Virus record (IMG/VR): IMGVR_UViG_3300042350_004664
Span: 1 to 22,029 of that record
DNA from: a virus
Reading direction: 5' to 3' (one strand)
DNA: 22,029 nt
The notes beneath the pieces are model-generated. The model did not search any database, had not been told where the DNA came from, and saw only the letters and a program-made list of their open reading frames with translations. This document shows positions 2,670 through 11,658 of this stretch, piece after piece (position 1 is the stretch's first letter; each line of letters opens with the position of its first letter). The position numbers and the translations under genes are program-made.

Positions 2670-2705
2670 GGTTTTATAGTTCCCTTGTCCACAACCACAC
2701 CTCTC

Positions 2706-4856: not shown

Positions 4857-5123
4857 CTTATCATCATACAACGATAGCTTTATAGGATTGCAAAACCCAT
4901 CATCCTAGCACCCATCACCACCCACCAGCACCCAGGAGATCCACCAGCACCACCCAGGAGCAGCAGGAGCACCTAGAGGGATTCCTTCTTTATGTAATGG
5001 AGAGAAGACCCATCCTTGTGACAATCAGAGCAGTGTCCCAAGAGTGGTTGTGGTGCTCGGTTCTGGTGGGGCATCATTCACTCAACGGCGCACCACTGAC
5101 GCCGACTCACCAACCCCACCAAG
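4857..5123 (+). other. gene-free stretch: low-complexity CCACCAGCACC repeats and long leader
   Basis: 4905-4970 repeats CACCAGCACC and CCCAGGAG twice with CAGCAGGAG. Further on, TGGTGGGG (about 5065-5072) is the reverse complement of CCCCACCA (about 5114-5121) directly before the ATG at 5124, so a long-range stem could cover that start. I see no strong promoter; a weak TATGTAAT lies at 4991. Confidence 0.5.
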
Positions 5124-5564
5124 ATGAACAACGCCACTCCTTTCTTCTCTCCTATTCTTCCCCTGCATCTGACTGAGGAACAGATCAACAAACTGGATGC
5201 AGTTTGTTTAGAAGTAACCGAAAAGTTTTTCCGCAAAGATTATGCCGATCGCATCATTGATGCCCTTAAGTATTCCCGTTGTGCAAAGAAAGGTTACTAC
5301 CGCACAACTCCCGACTTCCGCCACTTTATCGGAATCTACCATTGGGTTAAGTCTCACTGCAATTATGATGATTATGTTGTTTTCCGCAAGTATCTGCAAA
5401 CTCTGAGTGCAGTCTATCGCTGGCATTTCGGTCATTATGATTCTGTTACCGTCTACAACTATCTGCACGAACGGGTTAAGATTGAAACTCATTGTGAGCA
5501 TTGTGGTTCACTCTCTAAAACCCTGATTGATCGCCTGATTGAAGAGAACCTCTGGGCAGTGTGA
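5124..5564 (+). CDS. 146-residue protein of unknown function with C-terminal CxxC
   Basis: The ATG at 5124 follows a C/A-rich leader. Product of 146 residues, starting MNNATPFFSPILPLHLTEEQ; the middle is rich in Tyr, His and Arg (residues about 60-112), and the C-terminus holds CEHCGS (residues about 124-129), a possible half zinc site; single Cys residues upstream could complete it. No membrane segment. It is the only gene of its transcription unit and is followed by a GNRA-looped hairpin. I do not recognise the family. Confidence 0.8.
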   Translation: MNNATPFFSPILPLHLTEEQINKLDAVCLEVTEKFFRKDYADRIIDALKYSRCAKKGYYRTTPDFRHFIGIYHWVKSHCNYDDYVVFRKYLQTLSAVYRWHFGHYDSVTVYNYLHERVKIETHCEHCGSLSKTLIDRLIEENLWAV

Positions 5565-5603: not shown

Positions 5604-5645
5604 AACCTATCCTGTAGGATAACTGCAGTTCACCACACCACTCCG

Positions 5646-6332
5646 ATGAACACCACTCGCGTCACCATCACCGCCATCTCTGGCAATGCCAAGACTGGTA
5701 AGATCACTACAACGCGCACCGATCGCGCCACCTGCCCAACCACCTGTCCTTTCTACAGCAGCGGATGCTACGCTACGCTGGGGCGTGAGCGGATGCAATG
5801 GGATCGCCTTAATCGTAACGAAACTGGCGTAAGTTGGGATGAGTTTGTGTCACAAATTCGCCGTATTGTTCCCAATGGTGTTCTGTGGCGCCACAATACT
5901 GCAGGCGATCTGCCACACAATGACGGAAACATTGATTACCTGAAACTCAAACAGTTAATCAATGCAAACAAAGGTAAGAAAGGTTTCACCTATTCTCACC
6001 ACATTCTGAACGATCACAACATTATTTGCCTACAGAATGCCAATTCTTTAGGTTTCACTGTGAACGCATCTTGTGAGTCGGTTGATGAAGCTGATCGCGT
6101 GATGAGTGAGTATCGGATACCTGCCGTTGCAGTTGTTCACTCTGAAGAATCACGCCGATTCTTCACAACAACTAGCGGTCGCAAGGTTATCACCTGCCCT
6201 GCAGCATTGCACCCAGGTAAGGTAACCTGCGCCACCTGCGGTTTGTGTCAACAATCCGACCGTGAGTTTGTGATAGCATTCCCTGCACATGGTGCCAGCA
6301 AGCGTAAGGTTGACGCTATTGTGACGGTCTGA
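5646..6332 (+). CDS. 228-residue cysteine-rich phage protein (CPxxCPFY-GCYA type)
   Basis: ATG at 5646. Residues 12-23 (SGNAKTGKITTT) lead into a first cysteine cluster C30-x3-C34-x6-C41 in CPTTCPFYSSGCYA; a second cluster at C184 and C195-x2-C198-x2-C201 (TCATCGLC) is followed by VIAFPAHGASKRK (209-221). The middle, residues 70-165, has an alternating strand/helix pattern ending in PAVAVVHSEESRRFF, suggesting a barrel-like core. I recall uncharacterised phage proteins with these clusters (possibly the family called DUF7227), where the cysteines probably bind zinc or an iron-sulfur cluster. Largest gene of the accessory region. Enzymatic role unknown. Confidence 0.85.
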   Translation: MNTTRVTITAISGNAKTGKITTTRTDRATCPTTCPFYSSGCYATLGRERMQWDRLNRNETGVSWDEFVSQIRRIVPNGVLWRHNTAGDLPHNDGNIDYLKLKQLINANKGKKGFTYSHHILNDHNIICLQNANSLGFTVNASCESVDEADRVMSEYRIPAVAVVHSEESRRFFTTTSGRKVITCPAALHPGKVTCATCGLCQQSDREFVIAFPAHGASKRKVDAIVTV

Positions 6333-6364: not shown

Positions 6365-6420
6365 ACCGATCTGATAGGATAAGCACAAGCGGGACAGGAA
6401 CCCGCACCACACCCAGACCG

Positions 6421-6585
6421 ATGAACGAAACTACCCCAGTCACCGTTACCCTCACCCAAGGCGAGTGGGACACTATCAGGATCGCCGTCTTGGTTAGCAG
6501 CGGAACTGCCTATGAAAAGGGCAACTTTGGATGGCACGCAATGCTTCAGAGCGCATACAATGCCCTGAAGGAAACCACCTTCTGA
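6421..6585 (+). CDS. 54-residue small protein
   Basis: The ATG at 6421 follows a C/A-rich leader ending CCAGACCG, about 42 bases after TAGGAT. Product MNETTPVTVTLTQGEWDTIR then an amphipathic helical stretch (HAMLQSAYNALKETTF). 'LT--EW--I--A' with a following helix is common in small phage proteins of unknown role. Single-gene cassette; the stop is followed directly by ACTGGCACA. Confidence 0.74.
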   Translation: MNETTPVTVTLTQGEWDTIRIAVLVSSGTAYEKGNFGWHAMLQSAYNALKETTF

Positions 6586-6632: not shown

Positions 6633-6656
6633 TCTCTCAGTTCACACCACCGAACA

Positions 6657-6851
6657 ATGGCAGCACTACCTTTCACCGAGCACAATCCCGATGGACGGGG
6701 AGACTTCTTCAGTAACACAATCCTGCGCCCACCGCACACCAAACTGGATGCTAATCCTTGGATCTACTATTCTTGGGACATGGAAAGGTTTACAAACCTC
6801 ATGAGGATTCAAGGTAAAGAATTACCCGACTTTGTGAAGTCTAAAGTATAA
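6657..6851 (+). CDS. 64-residue small protein
   Basis: ATG at 6657 after the conserved TTCACACCAC leader. Product starts MAALPFTEHNPDGRGDFFSN and includes WIYYSWDMERFTNLMR, ending with a lysine-rich GKELPDFVKSKV. Soluble, no motif recognised. A strong terminator follows seven bases after the stop. Function unknown. Confidence 0.74.
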   Translation: MAALPFTEHNPDGRGDFFSNTILRPPHTKLDANPWIYYSWDMERFTNLMRIQGKELPDFVKSKV

Positions 6852-7066: not shown

Positions 7067-7090
7067 GATCTCAGTTCACACCACTGAACC

Positions 7091-7390
7091 ATGTTCAACA
7101 CCTTCACCGACCGCAAAGCATTCGGCGCTACCTACCAGTGGGCGATCCTGTCCCTGCTGCCCATGGATGACGGCAGCGGTTGCCTCACCCAAGACGGAAT
7201 GCGACCCACCGACATCAATCAGGCTCTGGGAATGCCCAATGAGGCACGGACTGCCCTCTCCCTGGTTCTCAAGCGCATGGCGCAGCAGGGACTGATCAAG
7301 CGCCACCAACTGGGTAACCGCTGGGTTGAGTACACTCGCATCATGCCCCTACGCAAGCGTGAGCGCATCGCCCGCTGGATTCGCGGATGA
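7091..7390 (+). CDS. 99-residue winged-helix DNA-binding protein
   Basis: ATG at 7091. After an N-terminal helix (AFGATYQWAILSLLPMD), residues 38-77 read as a helix-turn-helix: MRPTDINQALGMP, then a second helix SLVLKRMAQQGLIKR, then the wing HQLGNRWVEYTR (72-83) and a very basic tail (RKRERIARWIRG). Promoter/operator-like palindromes lie just upstream, so autoregulation is plausible. It probably controls transcription of early phage or host genes. The specific family (MarR-like or other) cannot be fixed. The gene has higher GC than the structural block. Confidence 0.8.
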   Translation: MFNTFTDRKAFGATYQWAILSLLPMDDGSGCLTQDGMRPTDINQALGMPNEARTALSLVLKRMAQQGLIKRHQLGNRWVEYTRIMPLRKRERIARWIRG

Positions 7391-7444: not shown

Positions 7445-7591
7445 ATGCGCCGCTTCCCTTTTATCTTCTGCCTGCTGTCGGTTCTGATCGGTCTGCGAAC
7501 ACTCAACGCCATGGCAACCGTTGATCCTAGCATGGATGCCGCCGCTGATCGCATCTGCCTCACCCGTCCTTCTGTCTGTGGTTTGGAATGA
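7445..7591 (+). CDS. 48-residue protein with signal peptide or membrane anchor
   Basis: ATG at 7445. MRR followed by a hydrophobic core (FPFIFCLLSVLIGL, residues 4-17) and LNAMA look like a signal peptide with a possible cleavage after AMA at about residue 24. The remaining 24 residues are VDPSMDAAADRIC...VCGLE with two cysteines that could form a disulfide outside the cytoplasm. Its stop overlaps the next ATG (ATGA). Function unknown. Confidence 0.68.
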   Translation: MRRFPFIFCLLSVLIGLRTLNAMATVDPSMDAAADRICLTRPSVCGLE

Positions 7592-7701
7592 AACTCCTAG
7601 GATTGATCGCGCTTCTGTGGTTGCTCTGGGAACCGATCCGACCCGTCCGCACTGTGACAGCTGAGGCACTGTCCACCGCCGCTGAAATGATCCGCCGCTG
7701 A
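7588..7701 (+). CDS. 37-residue membrane-anchored protein
   Basis: Starts in the ATGA overlap with the previous gene. Residues 2-14 (KLLGLIALLWLLW) are hydrophobic and would form a short membrane segment; the remainder (EPIRPVRTVTAEALST...) is basic and helical. It forms a second pair of tiny envelope proteins in this region, after 3080-3327. Function unknown. Confidence 0.62.
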   Translation: MKLLGLIALLWLLWEPIRPVRTVTAEALSTAAEMIRR

Positions 7702-7736
7702 CCCTGTAGACTTCTCTCAGTTCACCACACCACTCA

Positions 7737-7889
7737 ATGAACTACCCCATCACCAACTGCCGCCAGATCGAAGAGGATCGTTCACTGGATCTTCAAGAAT
7801 ACATTGAACAGCATTGGGAGGAGATTCAAGAGTTCTGGAATCATGAAGATTTCCCCATTGATGATAACGGATACTGCATTCAAAAGTAA
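7737..7889 (+). CDS. 50-residue acidic helical protein
   Basis: The ATG at 7737 follows the leader CTTCTCTCAGTTCACCACAC (7711-7730), nearly identical to the leader before 6657. Product MNYPITNCRQIEEDRSLDLQ, then an acidic/tryptophan-rich helix EEIQEFWNHEDF, ending in YCIQK. A strong terminator follows five bases after the stop. Function unknown. Confidence 0.74.
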   Translation: MNYPITNCRQIEEDRSLDLQEYIEQHWEEIQEFWNHEDFPIDDNGYCIQK

Positions 7890-7894
7890 CATTT

Positions 7895-7926
7895 AAGGGG
7901 AGCAAATACACTCCCCTTTTTTTATA
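7895..7926 (+). terminator. strong Rho-independent terminator
   Basis: AAGGGGAG-CAAATACA-CTCCCCTT followed by a T run. It ends the 7445-7889 group. Confidence 0.88.
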
Positions 7927-8053: not shown

Positions 8054-8080
8054 AACTGCAGTTCACACCACACCACACCG

Positions 8081-8335
8081 ATGAACCTCTCCACCTTCAC
8101 CGCCGACATCGCATGGGTCACCCGCCTGGATGAAGAACCCGAAATCTACGCTGAGCGCGATGCGCTTTATGTGGACTTCTACAGCACCGTTGATCAGGTG
8201 AGCAAGGCAGCGCCAGACCTGGTGTGCGTCGATCTGCACGATGGTGATTCCTGGGTCGCCTGGGAGGATGCCAGCATCTCAGAGGATGCGATCGACGCCC
8301 TGCAACGGTTCCGCTGGATTGTGACAGTCGATTAA
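8081..8335 (+). CDS. 84-residue acidic protein
   Basis: ATG at 8081. Product MNLSTFTADIAWVTRLDEEP..., acidic, with a beta-strand-like core (ALYVDFYSTV), the segment LVCVDLHDGDSWVAWED and a C-terminal helix IDALQRFRWIVTVD. Rich in Asp, Trp and Val; no membrane segment. Single-gene cassette with its own promoter and hairpin. Not recognised. Confidence 0.78.
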   Translation: MNLSTFTADIAWVTRLDEEPEIYAERDALYVDFYSTVDQVSKAAPDLVCVDLHDGDSWVAWEDASISEDAIDALQRFRWIVTVD

Positions 8336-8364: not shown

Positions 8365-8405
8365 ACACTGCGCCTACAATGACCTCAGTTCACACCACAC
8401 CACCG

Positions 8406-8579
8406 ATGCGAACCTTCTCACCCGCTTCTGATCTTCAAACCCGCCAGACCGTGTGGGCACTGCTGAAGAACGGATCCCCAGTCTGTGCCAAGGGCGAACC
8501 TGGTACCCTAACCGCAGTTGAGATCGCTGGATTCTTCTTCAGGAAATACGGCGAGGATCTCAAACCGCTGGAGATCTGA
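8406..8579 (+). CDS. 57-residue small protein
   Basis: The ATG at 8406 is chosen because it follows TACAAT and the TTCACACCAC leader (8389-8398). Product MRTFSPASDLQTRQTVWALL, then KNGSPVCAKGEPGTLTAVEI and a basic/aromatic helix FFFRKYGEDLKPLEI. Soluble. Function unknown; stop followed directly by TACAAT and the next hairpin. Confidence 0.74.
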   Translation: MRTFSPASDLQTRQTVWALLKNGSPVCAKGEPGTLTAVEIAGFFFRKYGEDLKPLEI

Positions 8580-8606: not shown

Positions 8607-8628
8607 ATCACCACCATCACACCACACC

Positions 8629-8784
8629 ATGCAAACCTTTCTCACCGCTGAAGAAATCCTGCAGTTAGTTACCACTGGCATGGTTACATTGACTGAGGAT
8701 CTTATGATCAGAATGTCAGAATCTTATGAGGATTCTGAATGGTACAATGACCCTAACAATGTTATGTCAAAGCATCATTACTGA
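8629..8784 (+). CDS. 51-residue acidic small protein
   Basis: ATG at 8629 after the leader ATCACCACCATCACACCACACC, which has no Shine-Dalgarno box. Product MQTFLTAEEILQLVTTGMVT, then LTEDLMIRMSESYEDSEWYN and a His-rich end (MSKHHY). An acidic two-helix protein by composition. AT-richer than its upstream neighbours from its middle onwards. Function unknown. Confidence 0.74.
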   Translation: MQTFLTAEEILQLVTTGMVTLTEDLMIRMSESYEDSEWYNDPNNVMSKHHY

Positions 8785-8785
8785 A

Positions 8786-8854
8786 ATGGTATTCTCGGCA
8801 TTCTTTATCATCATGGCGATTTTTACATTAGTGTTTGAATCTCGACGAGTATAA
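8786..8854 (+). CDS. 22-residue hydrophobic peptide, possible membrane protein
   Basis: An ATG one base after the previous stop opens 22 codons: residues 2-17 (VFSAFFIIMAIFTLVF) are wholly hydrophobic and the tail ESRRV is basic, a neat single membrane span with a cytoplasmic C-terminus. Length and shape resemble tiny photosystem or cytochrome subunits, but no specific match is visible. The last codons run into a CTCGACGAG motif (8841-8849). Could be chance. Confidence 0.42.
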   Translation: MVFSAFFIIMAIFTLVFESRRV

Positions 8855-8915
8855 TCTAGTCGAGATCACACATCATCATCTAGTCGAGATGCACAACATA
8901 CACATCTCGACTAGA
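8841..8915. repeat. cluster of CTCGACGAG and TCTAGTCGAGA motifs
   Basis: CTCGACGAG at 8841-8849, TCTAGTCGAGA at 8855-8865 and 8879-8889, and its reverse complement TCTCGACTAGA at 8905-8915. It lies in the leader region of the gene at 8952. The opposed copies can pair into a stem-loop (8879-8889 with 8905-8915, loop of 15). Confidence 0.72.
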
Positions 8916-8951
8916 TACACACAAACACACATTCACATCTAGATTCACATC

Positions 8952-9116
8952 ATGCAACACACATCTAGTTCAATCAATTCAATTGGCTTCACAATCACCT
9001 ATCAAACTCCATACAATCAATGTGAATGGCGCACACAATCTTTCACCACAAAAGAAGAAGCAGAAAGAATGATTGCATTCTATCAGTCTTGTGGTTCACC
9101 TGCTAAGTTTATCTGA
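8952..9116 (+). CDS. 54-residue small protein
   Basis: ATG at 8952, just downstream of the motif cluster. Product MQHTSSSINSIGFTITYQTP, then NQCEWRTQSFTTKEEAERMI and AFYQSCGSPAKFI. The 'F-T-EEAERMI-FY' part is a strand followed by a helix, a shape common in small phage proteins of unknown function. Two Cys. No promoter of the usual type is evident. Followed ten bases later by a basic mini-protein gene. Confidence 0.74.
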   Translation: MQHTSSSINSIGFTITYQTPYNQCEWRTQSFTTKEEAERMIAFYQSCGSPAKFI

Positions 9117-9126
9117 GGATAATATC

Positions 9127-9234
9127 ATGGGGAAATGGATTCACAAGGGTGGCAAATCACGCCCTGATAAAAGATTCAAGAACATTCTAACACCTAAGAA
9201 AGGTGCAGCAAAGAATAAAAGAAAGAAAAAGTAG
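9127..9234 (+). CDS. 35-residue very basic protein
   Basis: ATG at 9127, product MGKWIHKGGKSRPDKRFKNI, then LTPKKGAAKNKRKKK and stop. Nearly half of the residues are Lys or Arg, with no acidic residue except one Asp, so it would bind nucleic acid or ribosomes. It resembles in character the basic Gly/Lys-rich protein at 13043. It ends seven bases before the long inverted repeat. Too short for a family call. Confidence 0.58.
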   Translation: MGKWIHKGGKSRPDKRFKNILTPKKGAAKNKRKKK

Positions 9235-9241
9235 AAAGTAT

Positions 9242-9338
9242 AAAGTATAAAGAACTAACTCAGGATTAAGTGTAGTTTGTGAGTCAGTGGTGTGGTTTAA
9301 TTCTCTACACTTAGTCCTGTCTTAGTTCTTTATACTTT
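9242..9338. repeat. 34-bp imperfect inverted repeat with 29-base loop
   Basis: Left arm 9242-9275 and right arm 9305-9338 are complementary at 31 of 34 positions, one of the mismatches being a possible G-T pair. The loop is 9276-9304. The arms contain AAAGTATAAAG, repeated once more just upstream. It could be a DNA cruciform or a long RNA stem-loop; there is no T tract, so it is not an ordinary terminator. It sits directly before the 15-bp repeat array. Confidence 0.88.
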
Positions 9339-9359
9339 GCTGATCCGTATTGCTGCTGT

Positions 9360-9704
9360 GGTTGATCCTGATCCTGATGATACGGATTCGGTTGATCCTG
9401 ATCCTGACCCTACGGATTCGGTTGATCCTGATTCGGTTGATCCTGATTCGGTTGATCCTGATCCTGATGATCCTGATCCTGATGATCCTGATTCGGTTGA
9501 TCCTGATTCGGTTGATCCTGATCCTGACGCTACGGATTCGGTTGATCCTGATTCGGTTGATCCTGATCCTGACGCTACGGATTCGGTTGATCCTGATTCG
9601 GTTGATCCTGATTCGGTTGATCCTGATCCTGATGATCCTGATTCGGTTGATCCTGATCCTGATGATCCTGATCCTGATGATCCTGATTCGGTTGATCCTG
9701 ATTC
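9360..9704. repeat. tandem array, 23 units of 15 bp
   Basis: The array is built from units of GTTGATCCTGATTCG and variants GTTGATCCTGATCCT, GATGATCCTGATTCG and GACGCTACGGATTCG, in a non-random higher order. Being a multiple of three and free of stops, it is open in several frames on both strands. The plus frame from 9358 (GTG) would encode VDPDS/VDPDP/DDPDS/DATDS pentapeptides (frame open to 9873), the minus frame alternating Arg-Ile. Neither frame has a good start, and no Shine-Dalgarno box or promoter is seen, so I treat it as DNA repeats; an acidic repeat protein remains possible. Rich in GATC. Confidence 0.9.
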
Positions 9705-10029
9705 GGATCAGGTCAGCGTAGATTCCAACCACACAAGCGCCCGATCCGTCAAGCGTTCGCCCATAAGCGTCGCTGATCAAACGGATCTGCTTTTTTGTAT
9801 CCGTTGCTACCGTTTGCCTCTTGTGGGATCGGTGCCGCACCTTTATAGTTGCGGAGCGAACCTAGACAACTGAAGAACGGAAACGGGCGGAGCGCGTGGC
9901 AGGCGCACCGCACGCGACACGCGCCACCTATCGGGCGGGATCCTAGGGGTGTGTGCGCGCGACTGTACCGTTCTTTTATAGTTTCAAGTTTCGCCATTTA
10001 GTTCACTTTTGTCCCTTACTTTTGAGACA
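9705..10029. other. gene-free GC-rich stretch
   Basis: Inverted repeat AACGGAT/ATCCGTT (about 9779-9804) nested in CAAACGG/CCGTTTG; a GC-rich segment (about 9885-9965) of alternating GCGCG type; two copies of TTTATAGTT (about 9841 and 9975), of which the second may be a -10 region for the gene at 10030. No credible gene. Confidence 0.55.
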
Positions 10030-10341
10030 ATGATCATCACCGATCCCCGCGCTCAGATCGCCCAACTTATCGAGGCGATTAACGAACAAAAGCAAAAGGT
10101 TGAGTATGAAACTTCCGTGCTAAAAGCACGGCAGGAGATGCTTTTAGCCCTGATGGATTCCCACGGTTTTGATAAGATCAAAACCGATAAAGGTTCCGTC
10201 ACAGTGTGCAACGGAAAGCGTACAGTTGCAGTAACTGACCCCGCCCTAAAAGCGGAGATTAAACTGATCCAAGAACGCGGAGTCCGTACTGGGCGCTGTG
10301 AAGAAAGGATCGGGCAGCGTTACTGTATGATCCGCCGCTAA
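10030..10341 (+). CDS. 103-residue coiled-coil protein, possibly Gp157-like
   Basis: ATG at 10030 is preferred to an in-frame TTG at 10009. Residues 8-45 form a helix or coiled coil (IAQLIEAINEQKQKVEYETS...), followed by LLALMDSHGFDKIKTDKGSV and a short beta strand, then a second helix and a basic end (GQRYCMIRR). Helix, then 'M---G--KI-T--G-V-V' recalls the phage Gp157 family, where a coiled coil is followed by a strand with that motif; tentative. Its stop is followed by a terminator. Start of a group of four genes sharing the TTTCACCC type of leader. Confidence 0.75.
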   Translation: MIITDPRAQIAQLIEAINEQKQKVEYETSVLKARQEMLLALMDSHGFDKIKTDKGSVTVCNGKRTVAVTDPALKAEIKLIQERGVRTGRCEERIGQRYCMIRR

Positions 10342-11462: not shown

Positions 11463-11597
11463 AATCGCCTGCGTTCGTGCGTGTTTGGCAGTCCTAATCC
11501 GCCGCGATGGCGGATGCGGGGGGGTCATGGGGGCGTTTAAAAACAGCTAACTACCCTAACCTACAAAGTGTTACCCAAGCGTTCAAAATATAAGACT

Positions 11598-11658
11598 CAA
11601 AAACAAAAAAAATCGCCCATCAAAAACAAAAAAAATCGCCCATCAAAAACAAAAAATT
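11598..11658. repeat. A-rich tandem repeat, 23-bp unit
   Basis: Two exact units of 23 bp, CAAAAACAAAAAAAATCGCC plus CAT (11598-11620 and 11621-11643), and a partial third. It lies at the boundary between GC-rich accessory and AT-rich structural DNA and leads to TATATAAAATTG, a possible promoter core for the gene at 11691. Confidence 0.85.

Follow-up and report, generated by a model that had tools for sequence, protein, structure and literature searches.

The window, by which we mean the whole stretch of 22,029 nucleotides analysed here, is syntenic with Synechococcus phage S-SRM01 (Kyanoviridae) and carries speD and two baseplate wedge genes downstream, in line with the T4-like cyanophage origin implied by an earlier note made from the letters alone. 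That note had drawn attention to a nearly 800-base gap, which measures approximately 795 nt between the stop codon of a 35-aa ORF at 9234 and the ATG at 10030, and which holds a long hairpin, an array of 15-bp units and, from 9721 up to the gene at 10030, a conserved noncoding stretch (Table 1). All genes neighbouring the hairpin are on the + strand, and the hairpin may lie within the 3' UTR of the 35-aa ORF (9127-9234); neither Pfam nor PHROGs gave a match for the two small ORFs immediately preceding the hairpin. In the gene island, stem-loop terminators and promoter-like leaders separate the small genes, and 19 terminator-like sites were counted compared to 6.1 expected. Several other features were observed in the window. 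A tRNA-Met and a tRNA-Leu gene adjoin at 2165-2365, with 86% identity to the S-PM2 pair. Three copies of the palindrome-containing ATCTAGTCGAGAT lie in both orientations at 8854-8929, and at the matching place S-SRM01 has variants of TCTCGACGAGA. The conserved gene after the gap (10030-10341) matches Mu Gam-like end-protection proteins weakly in PHROGs (E 0.0006), and a perfect 23-bp tandem repeat at 11597-11656 (2.6 copies of TCAAAAACAAAAAAAATCGCCCA) lies where the GC-richer island of small genes gives way to the AT-rich structural genes.

Table 1. Positions of the features of the locus in the window
Feature	Position	Strand	Remark
9-nt loop complement	2693..2701	+	leader of ORF with ATG at 2706
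10-nt loop complement	5091..5100	+	24-33 nt before ATG at 5124; weak case, further from start
11-nt loop complement	5632..5642	+	leader of gene 5646-6332 (DUF7227)
8-nt loop complement	6406..6413	+	leader of ORF with ATG at 6421
8-nt loop complement	6643..6650	+	leader of ORF with ATG at 6657
11-nt loop complement	7077..7087	+	leader of ORF with ATG at 7091
11-nt loop complement	7724..7734	+	leader of ORF with ATG at 7737
10-nt loop complement	8067..8076	+	leader of ORF with ATG at 8081
10-nt loop complement	8394..8403	+	leader of ORF with ATG at 8406
8-9-nt loop complement	8618..8629	+	reaches the A of ATG at 8629
Basic 35-aa ORF	9127..9234	+	ends immediately before the hairpin
Conserved hairpin, candidate small RNA	9242..9338 (97 nt)	+	imperfect pairing, internal loop, 29-nt terminal region
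Invariant apical loop GTCAGTGGTGTGGTT (UCA-GUGGUG-UGG)	9283..9297	+	proposed pairing site
23 tandem 15-bp units	9362..9706	.	variable and lineage-specific, within a repeat hotspot; probably without function
boxA-like site	9858..9877	+	16/20 to picocyanobacterial rRNA boxA; in the conserved right flank

The inverted repeat has the geometry given in the earlier note, with two arms of 34 nt (9242-9275 and 9305-9338) that are complementary at 31 of the 34 positions (91%) and enclose a loop of 29 nt. Folded as + strand RNA, the hairpin reaches -48.8 kcal/mol, compared to -19.7 +/- 2.9 in dinucleotide shuffles (z = -10), none of the 200 shuffles being as low. Using two neighbouring proteins (encoded at 5646-6332 and 10030-10341), 70 loci were fetched from viral contigs, and in many of these T4-like cyanophage loci the hairpin is found in the same syntenic position. 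Searching for the loop motif raised the set to 53 distinct hairpins; as the added ones were chosen by their loop, many of the 53 were picked by an exact loop, the invariance of which holds there by construction. Among the loci fetched by the neighbouring proteins, the loop GTCAGTGGTGTGG is exact in 27/28 (26 contigs), the exception being locus L019 with one extra T, and in these protein-anchored loci the stem varies more than the loop core. The same loop is moreover common to at least three stem classes of differing sequence, and the internal loop of the stem is conserved as well.

The inner stem shows double compensatory changes in 9 of its 14 pairs over the 53 distinct sequences, with 99% of the cells paired. 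Its covariation score is above that of 500/500 shuffles, a test which is inflated by the relatedness of the sequences, and above that of every slid control, in which this relatedness is preserved. Among the stem mismatches, G.T is seen in 92 cells compared to 25 for A.C (37 loci versus 7), which indicates that the + strand is the one that folds, as RNA, and this wobble asymmetry argues against a role of the hairpin as single-stranded DNA; the + strand also folds better in 48 of 56 sequences. Having a covarying stem, an invariant loop and no ORF, the hairpin shows the sequence features of a conserved structured noncoding RNA element. Judged from these alignments, it is a long hairpin whose base pairing is under selection and whose G/U-rich apical loop is invariant, and we regard it as very probably a selected structured element. 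Of the options raised in the earlier note, a structured RNA is supported for the hairpin by covariation, invariant loop and G-U asymmetry.

The complement of the loop, AACCACACCAC(TGAC), includes the 8-mer most enriched before start codons in hairpin-bearing contigs. When 8-mers were counted de novo in the 25 nt before the ORF ATGs of 56 hairpin-bearing loci, a count in which the loop was not consulted, ACCACACC came out on top (106 genes compared to 7.2 expected), followed by CACACCAC, CACCACAC and CCACACCA, with AACCACAC in seventh place; ranks 1, 2, 4 and 7 fall within the reverse complement of the loop. At least 8 nt of loop complement precede 163 of the 1380 starts in these 56 loci, compared to 3/570 in hairpin-less relatives, which is background, and 1/680 on the other strand. 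The matches form a sharp peak 11-20 nt before the ATG. The genes having such a leader belong to 48 families without detectable protein similarity between families; the gene counts take in homologues from related phages, which the family count excludes, and the window was entered twice in the family clustering as well as in the shuffled-loop and 8-mer controls. The loop is by sequence a seed complementary to the translation-initiation regions of several mRNAs encoded elsewhere, and its exact complement is located just upstream of the ATG in dozens of unrelated small genes near the hairpin. With the window counted once, and where at least 3 kb upstream was available, 27 of 31 hairpin-bearing loci have at least two leaders and 0/31 have none, compared to 0/16 hairpin-less loci with two, an association that is confounded since both groups of loci differ in phylogeny.

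In the window itself, ten genes possess at least 7 nt of loop complement at most 30 nt from their ATG, all on the coding strand and nine of them with 8-11 nt, while the other strand holds only the hairpin itself and one 8-nt match. These leaders, which lie outside the positions given in the earlier note, make the complementarity to the loop the most telling feature of the locus. In six of them the motif is preceded, at 10-11 nt, by a -10-like hexamer; three of the six hexamers were also returned by a promoter scan, the total of which was near chance.

The conserved right flank of the gap contains a site resembling the boxA of picocyanobacterial rRNA operons, for which the published sequence was used as comparison (PMC9769826). 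This site is present in twelve distinct hairpin loci and in S-SRM01 (positions 8116-8135 of locus L004) and nowhere else on the + strand of about 540 kb; in locus L036 (5457-5476) it reads GAACCTTGACAACTGAATAG, a single base off the picocyanobacterial boxA (19/20). It is by sequence a match to the boxA of the host 16S-23S spacer, and in the three cyanobacterial genome matches that were checked, the boxA sequence lies close 3' of tRNA-Ile or tRNA-Ala, as in rRNA operon spacers. After the boxA-like site a GC-rich stretch follows (9876-9990), the ends of which look complementary (AAGAACGG/CCGTTCTT), and its counterpart in locus L008 has a different sequence with ends AGCAGGATCGG/CCGATTCTGCT. RNAalifold predicted no consensus pairs for the right flank, the complementary ends being visible by eye in single sequences; the stretch is possibly a second structured element.

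Since the invariant tip of the hairpin is the exact complement of a motif that precedes dozens of the phage's own small genes, the hairpin is probably a small regulatory RNA. We propose it as a candidate phage small RNA, the loop of which would pair with the leaders of the phage's own small genes as an antisense in trans, and give this reading a probability of about 60%. The hairpin would be transcribed as + strand RNA, perhaps to be released by cleavage from the 3' end of the mRNA for the small ORF 9127-9234. The spacing of the -10-like hexamers in the six window leaders suggests that the target mRNAs start just before the motif, which would leave a leader of some 20-25 nt. Over 8-11 nt beside the AUG, the loop would pair with these short A/C-rich leaders and thereby cover the ribosome-binding region, and this pairing could coordinately control the translation or stability of the leader genes, repression being the simplest outcome. 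The wider proposal, which we put forward tentatively as slightly short of an even chance, is that this clade of lytic T4-like cyanophages has an RNA regulon in which the invariant loop of one hairpin controls dozens of unrelated, separately promoted genes with complementary leaders, beside a leader that copies the boxA of host rRNA. If true, a lytic phage would have a regulon built into its genome, one that acts on islands of functionally uncharacterised small genes and provides these with a common control, and it would offer a handle on timing in T4-like cyanophages.

The leaders are generally A/C-rich, and a preference for CA-rich start sites could account for part of the enrichment. This leaves room for a different explanation, in which the hairpin is a structural mRNA element (an RNase III or processing site, a stabiliser or a protein-binding hairpin) and matches the leaders only because CA-rich leaders are favoured in the absence of a Shine-Dalgarno sequence. 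The long stem, the conserved internal loop and the location just after a small ORF would suit such an element, as would the good match of the reversed loop, which also scores high (121); the reversed loop is a poor control, however, because the leader core ACCACACCA is mirror-symmetric and A/C-rich. For the A/C-richness of the leaders, composition-matched controls were used, and these still single out the true loop: none of 200 dinucleotide-shuffled loops pairs as well with the A/C-rich leaders, and among the 56 8-mers composed of three A and five C the ones from the loop complement rank 1, 2 and 4. As a processing site would moreover not need a loop core that is steadier than its stem in the protein-anchored loci, we consider a structural element unlikely.

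The near-fixed distance of 10-11 nt between the -10-like hexamer and the motif in the six window leaders would also be expected if the motif were a double-stranded DNA operator, a phage protein binding CCACACCACTGA just downstream of the island promoters and at the hairpin site as well. A duplex site, however, has no need of a covarying stem around the motif, the G.T over A.C asymmetry is a signature of RNA, and the motif is almost always on the coding strand (163 versus 1), so that an operator appears quite unlikely. Read from the - strand, the loop AACCACACCACTGAC is identical to the leader motif, and a - strand hairpin copying the leaders could in principle be a decoy (sponge) for a leader-binding protein; the wobble asymmetry and the folding energies, which favour the + strand in the 48 sequences mentioned, and the neighbouring genes, which are all on the + strand, make this very improbable.

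Single-stranded DNA hairpins serve as origins and recombination sites, and the earlier note had taken hairpin and array together as a possible replication origin with iterons, or as a packaging or recombination site. Its description of the array was accurate: 23 ordered 15-bp units are in register at 9362-9706, starting 21-23 nt after the hairpin (9360-9706 according to Tandem Repeats Finder), and they are open in three frames with ORFs of 178, 123 and 172 aa. The two do not form a single element, the hairpin being conserved in relatives and the array not. The window's 15-bp array is limited to near-identical contigs, and a shorter related array is found in locus L028. More generally, tandem repeats cover 14.4% of the 450 bp 3' of the hairpin, compared to 1.3% of the remainder of these loci, and their units measure about 15, 22-28, 34 and 50 bp. 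Loci L028 and L106 have 3.9 and 8.9 copies, respectively, of TACGGATCCTGATGA at the same position, of which the array in the window is a longer, diverged relative; the copy number varies between phages in steps of 15 bp. The 3' arm of the hairpin is reused in several arrays (e.g. loci L083 and L097), which would fit slippage or recombination at the hairpin.

As relatives have unrelated units or other copy numbers, the array is unlikely to be coding or a conserved origin. Although the hairpin adjoins a repeat-rich spacer in many phages, an iteron-type origin or a packaging or recombination site is highly improbable: the units of different phages are not related to one another and frequently there is no array at all, so that no conserved direct repeats are found among the relatives, the complementarity between loop and gene leaders is left without an account, and the cumulative GC skew shows only a shallow minimum near 9000, where gene content changes as well. 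In relatives, hairpin and synteny are retained without any array or with unrelated, mostly non-triplet units, an outcome that the note itself had named as evidence against a function of the array. An acidic VDPDS-repeat protein, also suggested there on the basis of a + frame open for 178 codons from a TTG, is hardly credible, as this frame has no ATG start and no Pfam match, the three frames are equally open, changes occur at all three codon positions of the + frame, and other phages have repeats at the same site whose units are mostly not multiples of three, or have no array. The array is probably a separate, neutral and variable tandem repeat, expanded in a spacer prone to repeats on the 3' side of the hairpin.

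Returning to the hairpin as a candidate trans-acting RNA, phage small RNAs are known mostly from temperate phages and have few known targets. The antisense RNA c4 acts on its own operon in temperate phages, and CfrI of cyanophage S-PM2 is a cis-antisense RNA at psbA. CfrI is a noncoding RNA of a lytic T4-like cyanophage, as is proposed for the hairpin; the hairpin, however, is intergenic, occupies a different part of the genome and has other genes as putative targets. In phages P1, P7 and P22, c4 is phage-encoded and pairs with phage mRNA near the translation start (PMC12197685). The likeness lies in this antisense pairing near the start, which is proposed for the present hairpin, and the difference in that a single loop would here reach dozens of T4-like phage genes, each with a promoter of its own. 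VpdS of the temperate phage VP882 is a small phage RNA with phage mRNAs as trans targets and the host chaperone Hfq as partner (PMC12197685); the same mode of action is proposed for the hairpin, the pairing region of which is, in contrast, a rigid apical loop. The wcaG, manA and PhotoRC-II motifs are conserved structured RNAs of T4-like cyanophages and marine metagenomes (PMC2864571), as the hairpin would be in such phages, but these are cis-regulatory leader structures. PeSLs are cited in PMC4503421 as repeated terminator-promoter stem-loop units of T4-like phages, and the island of the window resembles them in its small genes with stem-loop terminators and promoter-like leaders. The hairpin differs from PeSLs in being a single locus with a loop complementary to leaders; it is single-copy in the window, and no T-run terminator and no strong promoter match were found downstream of it.

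Rfam scans of the window and four relatives gave nothing at or above the gathering score except the two tRNAs, and no match to wcaG, manA or PhotoRC-II; c4 (RF01695) gave no cmscan match at E up to 1. No reports of the hairpin RNA were found in open-access full text. By its sequence features the hairpin would be filed under no named family, resembling phage antisense RNAs such as c4, and would constitute an RNA family that Rfam does not contain.

When 50,697 phage records were searched by BLAST with three classes of the hairpin, no isolate carrying it was returned. A near match in the isolate DSL-LC03 was rejected, as it concerned flanking AT-rich DNA and not the hairpin; this isolate has no loop, and its leaders are not above background. 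Relatives lacking the hairpin and three 50-kb segments of S-SRM01 (approximately 150 of 241 kb) were scanned with a covariance model of the hairpin, which detected no diverged copy, its sole further match being locus L019 with the T inserted in the loop. S-SRM01 has kept three leaders with the loop complement, indicating that leaders can outlive the hairpin, for which any model has to make room, and at the place where the hairpin would be expected from its relatives it has an HNH endonuclease gene (91021-91458, i.e. 7481-7918 in locus L004). This gene contains ctacacttagtcttg, which matches the 3' arm of the hairpin (CTACACTTAGTCCTG) at 14 of 15 positions and may be a remnant of a hairpin lost from this place, or of a homing site.
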